A stretch of DNA of 64,000 bases from Rhodococcus rhodochrous (GTDB lineage: Bacteria > Actinomycetota > Actinomycetes > Mycobacteriales > Mycobacteriaceae), in assembly GCF_900187265.1 (NCBI RefSeq), contig NZ_LT906450.1:3525444-3589443 (forward strand). The letters run 5' to 3'. How positions within the stretch are numbered: position 1 is the stretch's first letter; every line of letters begins with the position of its first letter. This document shows positions 1,058 to 56,115 of this stretch, piece by piece. The position numbers and the translations under genes are program-made. Below the pieces are notes generated by a model. That model searched no databases, was not told the DNA's origin, and saw only the letters and a list, made by a program, of their open reading frames with translations.

Positions 1058-1663
1058 GTGAACCAACGTCTTCCCGTACCTTCCGAACAAGGACTCGCGC
1101 GCGCCGTCCACGAGATCATCGATTTCGCGGACGCGGAGGGTTGGGACCGCCCTCCCGTCATGTTCGCGCTCGTCCCGACCGTGCTTCTCGCAGCCGCCGA
1201 ACCCGCCCTCGCCGACCAACTCGACGAAGGACACGAGTACACCCCGATCGCGCAGGAATCCCTCCCCGACGACGTCGAGGGCGGCAGTCCCGCACTCGAG
1301 GAGTTCCTCGCCACGACCACCTGGCCCGGATCGGTTGCCGGGTGCGCGCTCGTGCAGGAGGTGGTCGTGCTGCCGCCGAGCGCCGAGAACGAACTCGACG
1401 ACGCCTTCACGCCGTTGCTCGCCGACGCCCACGCGGCGGACGAGGCGGCCCGGCTCGCAGCGCACAGTCACCCGGAACGACGCGCCGCCCGCCTCATCTC
1501 CGCGGTCCTGCGCGACGGGCCGTCGCTCTCACTCCTGCAGTTGCGTCCCCTCGACGACGACGATCCGTTCGCGGGCGCTGAACTGCGGACCTACGACAAC
1601 CTCGCCCCGCACGTCGTGGCTGCGTTGTACGCGACCCTCGAGGCAAGCGACGACGACTACTGA
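1058..1663 (+). CDS. PPA1309 family hypothetical protein
   Basis: Encodes 201 residues from a GTG start. It is acidic, with no membrane segment or signal peptide, so probably cytosolic. It resembles the PPA1309 family of actinobacterial proteins of unknown function, which commonly sits between the UPF0182 gene and the YlbL-type protease gene, as here. The open frame continues upstream to about 296, but that part overlaps the opposing UPF0182 gene and is Glu/His/Arg-rich shadow sequence, so the GTG at 1058 is preferred. The 3' end carries a 16-bp tandem duplication that begins at the stop codon. Confidence 0.72.
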   Translation: MNQRLPVPSEQGLARAVHEIIDFADAEGWDRPPVMFALVPTVLLAAAEPALADQLDEGHEYTPIAQESLPDDVEGGSPALEEFLATTTWPGSVAGCALVQEVVVLPPSAENELDDAFTPLLADAHAADEAARLAAHSHPERRAARLISAVLRDGPSLSLLQLRPLDDDDPFAGAELRTYDNLAPHVVAALYATLEASDDDY

Positions 1664-1692
1664 GAGGGCGATCACCTGAGAGGGCGATCACC
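1660..1692. repeat. 16-bp tandem duplication beginning at a stop codon
   Basis: The 16-bp unit tgagagggcgatcacc occurs twice without mismatch (1661-1676 and 1677-1692), preceded by a C that also matches the unit phase. The first TGA is the stop codon of the preceding gene. The junction is convergent with the protease gene ending at 1724. Confidence 0.9.
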
Positions 1693-1723
1693 GCGCTGCC
1701 GATCCCCCGTGCGGCGGGTGGGA

Positions 1724-2749
1724 TCAGCTGCAGGCGGGCGCGTCGCGTCCGTCCGCGATCGCTGCCAGCGCGTCGATCGCACCCTCGAGCGTCTCGACCT
1801 TCACGAGCTGCACACCCTCGGGGGCGCCGCTCTGCGCCTCCGCGCAGTTCTCGGCGGGCACCAGGAAGACGGTCGCGCCGTCCTCCGACGCCGCGGTGAG
1901 CTTGTGGGTGATCCCGCCGATCGGCCCGACCATCCCGTCCGAGTCGATGGTGCCGGTACCGGCGACGTCCAGGCCGCCGTTGAGCAGGCCAGGGCTGAGC
2001 TTGTCCACCACGGCCAGACTGAACATCAGGCCGGCGGACGGTCCGCCGATGTCGGCGAGGTTGAAGGTGACCTCGAAGGGCACCTCGGGAACCTCCTCGG
2101 TGGCGATGCCCAGGAAGCCCTTGTCCGGGTCGCCGGGCCGGGAACCGACGGGAACGTCGAACGATTCCTCGGCATCGCCGCGCCGGACGGTGACGTCCAC
2201 CGACTCACCGGGCGGCACGTCGCCGACCGCGCGCTGGACCTGGCCGGCCGTGCGCATCTCCTCGCCGCCGACGGCGACGATCCGGTCGCCCGCCTCGAGC
2301 AACCCGGCGGCAGGGGCGTCCTGGCCCACCTCGGCAATTCGCAGGGTCACCGGCAGGTCGAGATAGTGCAGGGCGGCGAGTTCGGCGGACCGCTCCGACT
2401 GGGCGAACTGCGCCTGGTCGACGGCCTGCACCTCGTCCTTGCTGCGGTCGGGTGGGTAGACCTGCTCGCGCGGCGCGACGCCGTAGCGCCCGCTGATCCA
2501 GGCGGTGAAGGTCTGCGCGAGGGTGAGATTGTCGGTGACCCCGACAGTCGTCATGAACAGACTGCCCTCGGTCTCGTCCGCCTCGATTCCCTCGAGCGCG
2601 ACGACCGGGGTGCCTTCGATCTCACCGAGCGTGTCGAAGACGGGGCCGGGGCCGAGCGCCACGTACGGCGCCCGGACGTTGAACGCCACGACCACGATGA
2701 CGAGGATCGGGAGCACGAGCGCGAGCGGCAGGACGTAGCGACGATTCAC
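1724..2749 (-). CDS. Secreted/membrane-anchored PDZ-Lon (S16) protease, YlbL family
   Basis: Encodes 341 residues. One N-terminal hydrophobic segment (about residues 5-24) acts as signal or anchor, placing the rest outside the membrane. A PDZ domain spans about residues 130-190 (core AGDRIVAVGGEE). It is followed by a Lon-type S16 protease domain with the catalytic Ser in GGPSAGL (S238) and the Lys in GGITHKL (K283), the Ser-Lys dyad of the family. Unlike Lon there is no AAA+ domain. It matches Rv3194c in order. Family members process membrane or exported substrates; the substrate here is unknown. Confidence 0.9.
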   Translation of the reverse strand: MNRRYVLPLALVLPILVIVVVAFNVRAPYVALGPGPVFDTLGEIEGTPVVALEGIEADETEGSLFMTTVGVTDNLTLAQTFTAWISGRYGVAPREQVYPPDRSKDEVQAVDQAQFAQSERSAELAALHYLDLPVTLRIAEVGQDAPAAGLLEAGDRIVAVGGEEMRTAGQVQRAVGDVPPGESVDVTVRRGDAEESFDVPVGSRPGDPDKGFLGIATEEVPEVPFEVTFNLADIGGPSAGLMFSLAVVDKLSPGLLNGGLDVAGTGTIDSDGMVGPIGGITHKLTAASEDGATVFLVPAENCAEAQSGAPEGVQLVKVETLEGAIDALAAIADGRDAPACS

Positions 2750-2864
2750 CCGGCCAGGGTAGCGGTCGCCCGACCACCCCCTTCACACCACGACCGTGTC
2801 GTGTTCGCCATGAGCGTGACCACGATGCCGGTCCCCGCCCTGGACGCCTTGTACCGTTGGATAC

Positions 2865-55345: not shown

Positions 55346-55403
55346 CCGTCACGGCGTCAGCCGTGCCGATGCAACCGTCACGGTGTCGGCCGTGCCGATC
55401 CGT
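55346..55403. repeat. 29-bp tandem duplication upstream of the Rv3235-like gene
   Basis: Two copies (55346-55374, 55375-55403) share ccgtcacgg...ccgtgccgat with four or so differences. Each folds as CACGG(C/T)-GTC(A/G)-GCCGTG. It lies in the 5' region of the gene at 55424, in a divergent gap of 201 bp, and so may be regulatory. Confidence 0.75.
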
Positions 55404-55423
55404 CATGCCTTTCGGGAGAGCTC

Positions 55424-55975
55424 ATGTCGCATCACACCGGGCGCTACGTGCGCCGCCTCACCAACCTCGAACCTCCGGTCGAGGAGGCCTGTCATCGTCC
55501 CCGCAGCCACCTCGCGCGCCGGCCCACGCCGCACGACGGACGCTCGGGGCGCGCACCGCTCCGCCGCGACGGAACCGAACGTCCGACCACCGCCCCCGGC
55601 ACCGAAGATCCGACCACGCGGCCGGGCGACCGGCCCGCGATCGTCCTCGATCCGGGTGTCGTGCGGGTCGCGGAGACGGCGGTGCGACTGGTTCTCGAAG
55701 TGGTCGACGGCCGCCGTCCCGCCGTGCAGTCCACGACGGTCCTCGACCCGCGTCTCGTCGCCACGATCACTGCGGCCCGGCCTCCTCGCGCAGGACGCAG
55801 CACTGCGGTGCTGCTGCGGACGCGGGTACGTCCCGTCGACGCCGACACCGTGGAGGTGTTCGGCAGCTACGGTCGCGGGGACCGGGTGTTCGCCTACGCC
55901 GGCCGGATGGTGCACAAGCGCCCCCGCCCTCGTGCTCCGCACCGCTGGACGATCACGACCCTGTGGCTCGGGTGA
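55424..55975 (+). CDS. Rv3235-family hypothetical protein
   Basis: Encodes 183 residues. The first 70 are Arg/Pro/Thr-rich and probably disordered. A compact C-terminal domain (VLDPGVVRVAETAVRLVLEVVDGRR...VEVFGSYGRGDRVFAYAGRM) matches the actinobacterial Rv3235 family. Unknown function. Convergent with secA. Confidence 0.75.
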   Translation: MSHHTGRYVRRLTNLEPPVEEACHRPRSHLARRPTPHDGRSGRAPLRRDGTERPTTAPGTEDPTTRPGDRPAIVLDPGVVRVAETAVRLVLEVVDGRRPAVQSTTVLDPRLVATITAARPPRAGRSTAVLLRTRVRPVDADTVEVFGSYGRGDRVFAYAGRMVHKRPRPRAPHRWTITTLWLG

Positions 55976-55997
55976 GCCACAGGGTCGTGGGGCGATC

Positions 55998-56115
55998 GTG
56001 AGTCTTCGACTCAGCACTCCATGTGAGTCTTCGACTCAGCACACCACGTGAGTCTTCGACTCAGCACACCACGTGAGTCTTCGACTCAGCACTCCATGTG
56101 AGTCTTCGACTCAGC
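55998..56115. repeat. 25-bp tandem repeat array at the 3' end of secA
   Basis: Four full 25-bp copies (55998, 56023, 56048, 56073) and an 18-bp fifth (56098-56115) that contains the secA stop (TCA on the plus strand, 56111-56113). Each holds TGAGTC-TTC-GACTCA, a 6-bp stem. Copies differ only at the last bases (ctccat or caccac). Confidence 0.95.

Follow-up and report, generated by a model that had tools for sequence, protein, structure and literature searches.

Hairpin-bearing short tandem duplications are enriched at convergent gene ends in Rhodococcus rhodochrous

Bacterial VNTR loci or minisatellites are tandem arrays of units of about 10-60 bp whose copy number differs between related genomes, and the mycobacterial MIRU-VNTR loci among them consist of one related sequence family with typically longer units. 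The arrays in the window (the whole 64-kb stretch of Rhodococcus rhodochrous DNA analysed here) are of this kind: they are intergenic, have units of tens of bp, and vary in copy number between lineages. In contrast to MIRUs, however, each junction has its own unit of 14-32 bp, and the arrays are mostly found at convergent ends. Short tandem duplications formed when staggered or paired nicks are filled in and the ends are rejoined have been described in eukaryotes; they resemble the present ones in their size of tens of bp and in their little boundary homology, and for the arrays in Rhodococcus we propose a link of such events to convergent ends and hairpins. Another comparable system is REP/BIME, described in an excerpt of PMC3733652 as small palindromes at 3' ends that are commoner between convergent or unidirectional genes. 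Bidirectional intrinsic terminators likewise place hairpins between convergent genes, and several of the junctions described here have one beside the array. Such shared terminators are more conserved in Bacillus cereus, as an excerpt of PMC5381666 states, whereas the array hairpins have stems of 5-8 bp, lack a U-run, occur in repeated copies and show fast turnover. Among the papers listed by the literature searches, none addressed the pattern in its title or abstract.

Tandem repeats in the window were located with TRF, the array sequences were then read directly, and gene orientation was taken from our own gene caller. The original prediction had named eight genes with tandem duplications that contain their stop codons, and all eight duplications were found, with units of 14-27 bp in 1.9-5.6 copies (TRF) and a stop codon inside each array. 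At 1660..1692, a 16 bp x2.1 duplication lies over the stop codon (1661-1663) of a plus-strand gene that ends at 1663 (PPA1309 of the prediction, which is also the source of the gene names in parentheses below) and has no Pfam match; the unit has one copy only in the sister genome G008 and in G013 and G007. An exact 27 bp x2.0 duplication at 7819..7872 covers the stop codon of the minus-strand UvrD-helicase gene at 7844-9985 (uvrD2), a TAG that is created by the repeat junction itself, and the unit occurs in about 3 copies in G008 and in 1 copy in G005. Two further duplications, each 14 bp x2.1, lie at 10338..10366 over the stop codon of a plus-strand glutaredoxin-like gene (mrx1) and at 10422..10451 over that of a minus-strand NUDIX gene (nudC), with a hairpin between them (10384..10412) that is probably a shared terminator. 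The former unit has one copy only in G008 and G005, and at the site of the latter G005 carries a different array, 15 bp x3. The 26 bp x2.7 array at 34407..34475, over the stop codon of a plus-strand TetR gene, has a 6-bp stem in its unit (GTCGTC-GCT-GACGAC), and its copies, counted by eye, number 1 in G008, 2 in G005, 2 in G013 and about 4 in G003. A strong hairpin between this array and the DUF3107 gene (34498..34530) is a probable shared terminator.

The 27 bp x5.6 array at 43987..44136 reaches the stop codon (44126-44128) of a minus-strand zinc-finger anti-sigma gene (rshA), and its unit contains ACTCG-GTA-CGAGT. TRF finds 3.6 copies in G008 and 2.3 in G005, and does not find the unit at the orthologous junction of G013, G003, G015 and G007. 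Here, a strong hairpin that is probably a terminator (43937..43974) directly follows a small plus-strand gene ending at 43930, which we take to encode ribosomal protein bL37. In case of rsgA, an imperfect 19 bp x1.9 duplication (48880..48916), identical in state in G008 and G005, comprises the RsgA stop codon and the left arm of the terminator hairpin at 48905..48940. The 25 bp x4.8 array at 55997..56115 ends at the SecA stop codon (56111-56113; secA1), every unit contains the 15-bp palindrome TGAGTC-GAA-GACTCA, and the copies number 5 in the own genome, 3 in G008 and 4 in G005, with differing spacers; a hairpin at 55961..55982 overlaps the stop codon of the plus-strand DUF6459 gene ending at 55975. 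Copy number and unit vary among sister species at the same junctions, and in these between-species comparisons the arrays appear to be young. At junction 38617, the own genome has no array, while G005, G003 and G015 have arrays of 26, 27 and 24 bp; the units of G005 and G003 are partly alike in sequence and that of G015 is different.

Within the window, arrays are present at 7/15 convergent, 0/28 co-directional and 0/15 divergent junctions (Fisher p 2e-5, calculated on the same window that suggested the idea). Seven was also the number originally given, out of a total of about 14 convergent junctions that becomes 15 with our gene caller, one of them depending on a doubtful 33-aa ORF at 41439-41540. 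A scan of 3' ends beyond the window had been proposed, and the enrichment holds in an independent sample of 1.6 Mb from a separate part of the same genome, in which arrays occur at 28/232 convergent, 36/944 co-directional and 9/239 divergent junctions (all units, OR 3.5, p 4e-6). It is not exclusive, however: the claim that tandem gene ends are free of such arrays is correct for the window but not for the larger sample, and the array density at convergent junctions is higher in the window (7/15) than in the sample (28/232). A chance origin of the arrays is excluded, with 28 array-bearing convergent junctions (all units) seen versus 4.75 in Markov shuffles (a shuffled count that takes in 30-bp flanks), and with 16 convergent junctions bearing arrays of 22-33 bp versus about 0.2 in Markov shuffles of the sampled junctions. 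The codon score of the flanking genes is unrelated to the arrays (0.394 vs 0.392, p 0.82).

The enrichment depends on unit length. Units of 22-33 bp, a class that was picked after the own-genome list had been inspected, occur at 16/232 convergent versus 8/944 co-directional junctions of the 1.6-Mb sample (OR 8.7), those of 16-21 bp have an OR of 2.4 (p 0.058), those of 10-15 bp show no convergent excess (OR 1.2), and units of 34-60 bp are absent from every junction class. The ratio of convergent to co-directional arrays is 16:8 for units of at least 22 bp versus 12:30 for shorter ones (p 0.004). Stratification by gap leaves a Mantel-Haenszel OR of 7.3, and with well-scored genes only, the 22-33 bp class is found at 7/177 versus 6/730 junctions (OR 5.0, p 0.006). 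In G008, arrays of all units taken together show no significant excess (7/114 convergent, OR 1.3, p 0.49), and the 22-33 bp class is enriched there too (7/114 convergent vs 6/475 co-directional). Outside the clade, counts come from one orthologous region only, the rsgA locus, where arrays of all units are seen at 9/104 convergent junctions in other Rhodococcus/Prescottella, 8/155 in Nocardia and 5/49 in others, none of which is significant, and those of 22-33 bp at 3/104, 2/155 and 1/49, respectively.

As to the content of the units, the suggestion that hairpins are multiplied agrees with our data: among 23 units from convergent junctions (18-35 bp, score at least 60, own sample plus window), 74% have a stem of at least 5 bp, versus 24% of random segments from 129 array-free convergent gaps (0/400 draws). 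Such stems are also present in 55% of 22 co-directional and divergent units. At the TetR locus and at loci L136 and L153, the hairpin is already there in single-copy alleles. The secA1, rshA and TetR units have short stems and no U-run, and thus do not combine the strong hairpin and U-run of an intrinsic terminator; U-less actinobacterial terminators are possible for array units. No Rfam family matched the window at the gathering threshold. Several arrays are placed between the stop codon and a terminator hairpin, but as substitutes for missing terminators the arrays are to be rejected, as strong hairpins are found in 43% of 28 array-bearing versus 54% of 118 other gaps. A multiplication of stop codons in frame is not supported either, since the period is divisible by 3 in only 8/27 stop-overlapping arrays. 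Nor does the stop codon serve as an anchor, as 27/33 arrays overlap it versus 23.3 expected with uniform placement; the overlap is mostly a matter of geometry.

How may such arrays arise? The explanation that we tentatively favour, at somewhat less than even confidence, is a recurrent, hairpin-seeded short tandem duplication that convergent 3' ends tolerate and probably promote, and that generates young mini-satellites from local sequence. A short stretch, usually with a small hairpin and 22-33 bp long in the majority of the stronger arrays at convergent ends, would be duplicated in place, and more copies would be gained or lost thereafter. As the first copy retains the whole gene end including the stop codon, the protein would remain unchanged and the new DNA would be nearly neutral. 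The hairpin, and not slippage between direct repeats, would guide the duplication; either a stalled or nicked hairpin could be copied twice via template switching, or a staggered break could be filled in and then rejoined. A Ku homologue for break rejoining is encoded in the own genome, but as Ku is common in the family (34/41 genomes), it cannot explain the difference between clades. The state of the convergent 3' end, with two incoming transcripts, positive supercoiling and terminator hairpins, may lift the duplication rate beyond what tolerance alone would account for, and the transcription collision named in the prediction may contribute.

One could instead assume that the arrays are selected, i.e. 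that 3' UTR hairpin repeats serve as additional terminators, protect RNA ends or buffer the topology between converging transcription units, and are kept once arisen. Apart from the placement of several arrays before a terminator hairpin, this is suggested by the stems of convergent arrays, in which mismatches are fewer than elsewhere in the unit (16/888 vs 63/1215 in 26 arrays, some orthologous), by a stem that is kept in 12/12 secA1 copies of three species while spacers differ, and by folding of the abutting gene's strand, which is better than in shuffles at secA1 (z -2.7) and rshA (z -2.9). However, stem conservation is partly ascertainment, because a similar but weaker tendency is seen in coding arrays (27/641 vs 64/872), and divergent arrays show none. 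The sense-strand preference is not significant (12/18, p 0.084), the arrays are missing from sister species at these junctions, gaps with an array do not lack strong hairpins, U-runs are absent from the units named above, and divergent arrays, which have no gene end at all, can hold hairpins too. Selection as the explanation is rather unlikely.

Plain tolerance would mean that duplications arise at a uniform rate and survive mostly in convergent gaps, which contain neither promoter nor ribosome-binding site and are under less constraint than any other DNA of the genome. Convergent gaps indeed change fastest, with 0.083 substitutions per site versus 0.045 and 0.047 in the other two junction classes, 23 small indels per kb versus 7 and 6, and 9.6 long indels other than duplications per kb versus 1.6 and 1.9, and close to convergent stops the substitution rate comes near that of fourfold sites (0.110). 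Because of the additional substitutions and non-duplication long indels, relaxed constraint is part of the explanation. Yet tolerance predicts no length preference, in conflict with the excess of 22-33 bp units and its absence at 10-15 bp, and by itself it leaves the unit hairpins unexplained. In long gaps, post-stop substitution is about equal (0.084 vs 0.080) while indels are about 2.7-fold apart with one alignment scheme. The hairpin-seeded duplication also draws on the indels just past the stop, which are about 1.8-3.6 times commoner where genes converge than where they are co-directional (the bootstrap interval exceeds 1 in 32/32 comparisons). Whether indels exceed the level predicted by substitution depends on the scheme, with intervals above 1 in 16/16 comparisons with one and including 1 in 14/16 with the other. 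Tolerance alone is an unlikely account.

Replication slippage of the classical type, at short direct repeats already in place, had been considered in the prediction and would make hairpins and convergence irrelevant; it is improbable for the initial duplication. Boundary homology is only 0-4 bp, near random expectation, in 9/16 exact convergent pairs, and the 7/16 pairs with 7-20 bp all belong to arrays of more than 2 copies; later copy-number change in existing arrays, which differ in copies among species, is most simply explained by slippage or recombination. A dispersed mobile palindrome family inserted at gene ends can hardly be considered, despite the palindromic nature and 3'-end preference of REPs elsewhere (PMC3733652, excerpt), as the units differ from junction to junction, exact copies of the secA1 palindrome are confined to its array, nothing else closely resembles the rshA unit (these two units were searched), and the Y1 (IS200/RAYT-type) transposase domain PF01797 has 0 matches in the own genome while controls match in 5/14 genomes, all in line with the earlier view that no single mobile repeat is involved.

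The hairpin-seeded duplication can also be taken further: convergent ends in this Rhodococcus clade could be mutational hot spots with a length measure of their own. In this view, a hairpin-dependent process coupled to converging transcription, with its opposed RNA polymerases, its positive supercoiling and nicks where hairpins are extruded, would time and again duplicate about 22-33 bp, thereby seeding unrelated hairpin mini-satellites at the same junctions across species as raw material for new 3' UTR structures. This bolder version is conceivable, although we would not expect it to be correct. Hairpin units of 22-33 bp at convergent ends are a countable signature, open to testing in any genome. 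If short duplications of set length are indeed created by convergent transcription or terminator hairpins, gene orientation would shape local mutation as well as selection, and the arrays could serve as markers for strain typing and as a natural supply of new structure in 3' UTRs.

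The eight short tandem duplications over stop codons on which the original prediction rested, at PPA1309, uvrD2, mrx1, nudC, TetR, rsgA, rshA and secA1, were all recovered by TRF in their places and their sequences read directly. Their restriction to seven convergent junctions held as well, since arrays were found in the window at 7 of 15 convergent, 0 of 28 co-directional and 0 of 15 divergent junctions, as delimited by a dicodon gene caller trained on the source genome (5.27 Mb, single contig, 64 kb of which form the window). Pfam supports the gene names with matches to UvrD helicase, glutaredoxin-like, NUDIX, TetR, zinc-finger anti-sigma, RsgA GTPase and SecA, and a Pfam search of the first gene, read as PPA1309, gave no match. 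The best named matches of RsgA are from Rhodococcus (top match 91%, Rhodococcus sp. CH91), and the small gene preceding the rshA array is presumably bL37. At 55961-55982, a terminator-like hairpin encloses the stop codon of a plus-strand gene ending at 55975.

The scan of 3' ends was extended to 80 stretches of 20 kb, evenly spaced along this genome and lying outside the window, and arrays (period at least 10, TRF score at least 40) were found there at 28/232 convergent, 36/944 co-directional and 9/239 divergent junctions (convergent versus all others, OR 3.5, p 4e-6). The predicted convergent enrichment is thus genome-wide, but arrays are not exclusive to convergent junctions, and the window is richer in them than the genome average. 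Centred on stop codons, the count was 37/448 convergent versus 19/909 co-directional ends (OR 4.2), with 14/128 versus 2/142 in gaps of 40-79 bp and 0/39 versus 4/144 in gaps of at least 160 bp. The enrichment depends on unit length: the OR was 1.2 for 10-15 bp, 2.4 for 16-21 bp (p 0.058) and 8.7 for 22-33 bp (16/232 convergent versus 8/944 co-directional, p 5e-7; divergent 5/239), and units of 34-60 bp occurred in no junction class of this sample. Stratification of the 22-33 bp class by gap length gave a Mantel-Haenszel OR of 7.3, and restriction to well-scored genes one of 4.6 (raw 7/177 versus 6/730). As this class was chosen after the array list of the genome was known, a replicate was needed, and the congeneric genome G008 provided it (7/114 convergent versus 6/475 co-directional, OR 5.1, p 0.005); with all units, G008 had 7/114, 23/475 and 5/115 at convergent, co-directional and divergent junctions (not significant, p 0.49).

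Could convergent gaps simply tolerate duplications? In alignments with G008, made for 39 stretches and the window, 111 junctions were convergent, 448 co-directional and 115 divergent; these three classes had 0.083, 0.045 and 0.047 substitutions per site, and per kb 23.3, 6.9 and 6.0 small indels, 1.99, 0.27 and 0.18 long duplication-type indels, and 9.55, 1.56 and 1.85 other long indels. Compared with fourfold sites (difference 0.110), these rates make convergent gaps the least constrained DNA, and this low constraint accounts for part of the array enrichment. Directly past the stop, the indel frequency at convergent ends was 1.8-3.6 times that at co-directional ends, and the bootstrap interval lay above 1 in 32/32 comparisons. 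With one alignment scheme, the indel-to-substitution excess was 1.7-2.7 and the interval exceeded 1 in 16/16 comparisons, but with another it was 1.2-1.6 and the interval included 1 in 14/16. These results are suggestive of a mutational bias at convergent ends; the length specificity is the stronger argument.

The arrays may have a selected role. The original prediction had them possibly multiplying stop codons, which is not borne out: stop overlap was near expectation (27/33 arrays versus 23.3) and the period was divisible by three in 8/27, which argues against selection for additional stops. A shortage of terminator hairpins in array-bearing gaps was looked for and not found. The secA1 and rshA arrays, taken on the same strand as the gene they abut, folded better than shuffles (z -2.7 and -2.9; opposite strand -1.4 and -0.2), the TetR array did so on neither strand, and a sense-strand preference across 18 arrays was not significant (p 0.084).

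A bias at convergent ends may involve hairpins. Stems of at least 5 bp with loops of 3-8 were present in 74% of the convergent units from the sample and the window (n = 23; length 18-35 bp, score at least 60), versus 24% of segments from array-free convergent gaps and 31% of units from tandem repeats inside genes; co-directional and divergent units are also stem-rich (55% of 22). Examples are TGAGTC-GAA-GACTCA (secA1), GTCGTC-GCT-GACGAC (TetR) and ACTCG-GTA-CGAGT (rshA). In 26 convergent arrays, which include orthologous copies of one array, mismatches fell on 16/888 stem and 63/1215 other positions; the difference was weaker in coding arrays (27/641 versus 64/872) and absent in divergent ones (11/223 versus 15/310). 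Slippage was one of the origins proposed; boundary homology was 0-4 bp in 9/16 exact convergent pairs, near random expectation, with 7-20 bp in the other 7/16, all in arrays of more than two copies. The hairpin is already present in single-copy alleles at TetR and at the loci L136 and L153. At the uvrD2-like gene end (7819-7872), the copy junction of a 27-bp (9-codon) duplication itself makes a TAG stop, so that protein length is unchanged, and the second copy would encode an identical tail, then TGA. These observations favour a model in which a hairpin or staggered break would guide duplication, rather than slippage between direct repeats. The Ku homologue of this genome is compatible with break rejoining, though not specific, because 34/41 family genomes have Ku.

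Copy numbers vary among genomes of the genus. The source genome, G008 and G005 have 5, 3 and 4 copies at secA1 (stem intact in 12/12, spacers differing; the other relatives compared have no such array), 2, 3 and 1 at uvrD2, and 5.6, 3.6 and 2.3 at rshA by TRF; TetR copies, by eye, number 3 in the source genome, 1 in G008, 2 in G005, 2 in G013 and about 4 in G003. G005 carries a separate array (15 bp x3) at the nudC junction, and the junction at 38617, without array in the source genome, has units of 26 bp in G005, 27 bp in G003 and 24 bp in G015, the first two partly alike and the third different. TRF flagged arrays at 4/14 junctions in G008, 6/14 in G005, 0/13 in G013, 3/9 in G003, 1/13 in G015 and 2/14 in G007, and, in the same run, at 6/14 in the source genome, a count lowered by truncation of its uvrD2 segment. 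At the convergent junction of stretch L157, the G008 counterpart (L231) has duplications at both gene ends (24 bp and 18 bp) flanking a hairpin, resembling the mrx1/nudC junction. At the junction in L172 (near 6594-6632), G008 has an orthologous gap longer by several hundred bases, which may contain an extra gene; the source genome has a 17-bp duplication adjacent to this place. The match to the SecA of G005 (L088 and L101; G005:C2:2120802-2123690) falls into two overlapping parts, covering query positions 2-881 and 853-946, which suggests an insertion or divergent stretch near the C-terminus.

Among the titles and abstracts that literature searches listed, none concerned this pattern. At 80 loci around rsgA in other Nocardiaceae and relatives, the convergent excess was weak or absent; a clade difference is therefore likely but unproven, because these loci represent one shared genomic region. 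In E. coli, positive supercoils accumulate between convergent genes, as described in PMC8360656, and by analogy such supercoiling would be a physical ground for unusual behaviour of the DNA at such junctions.
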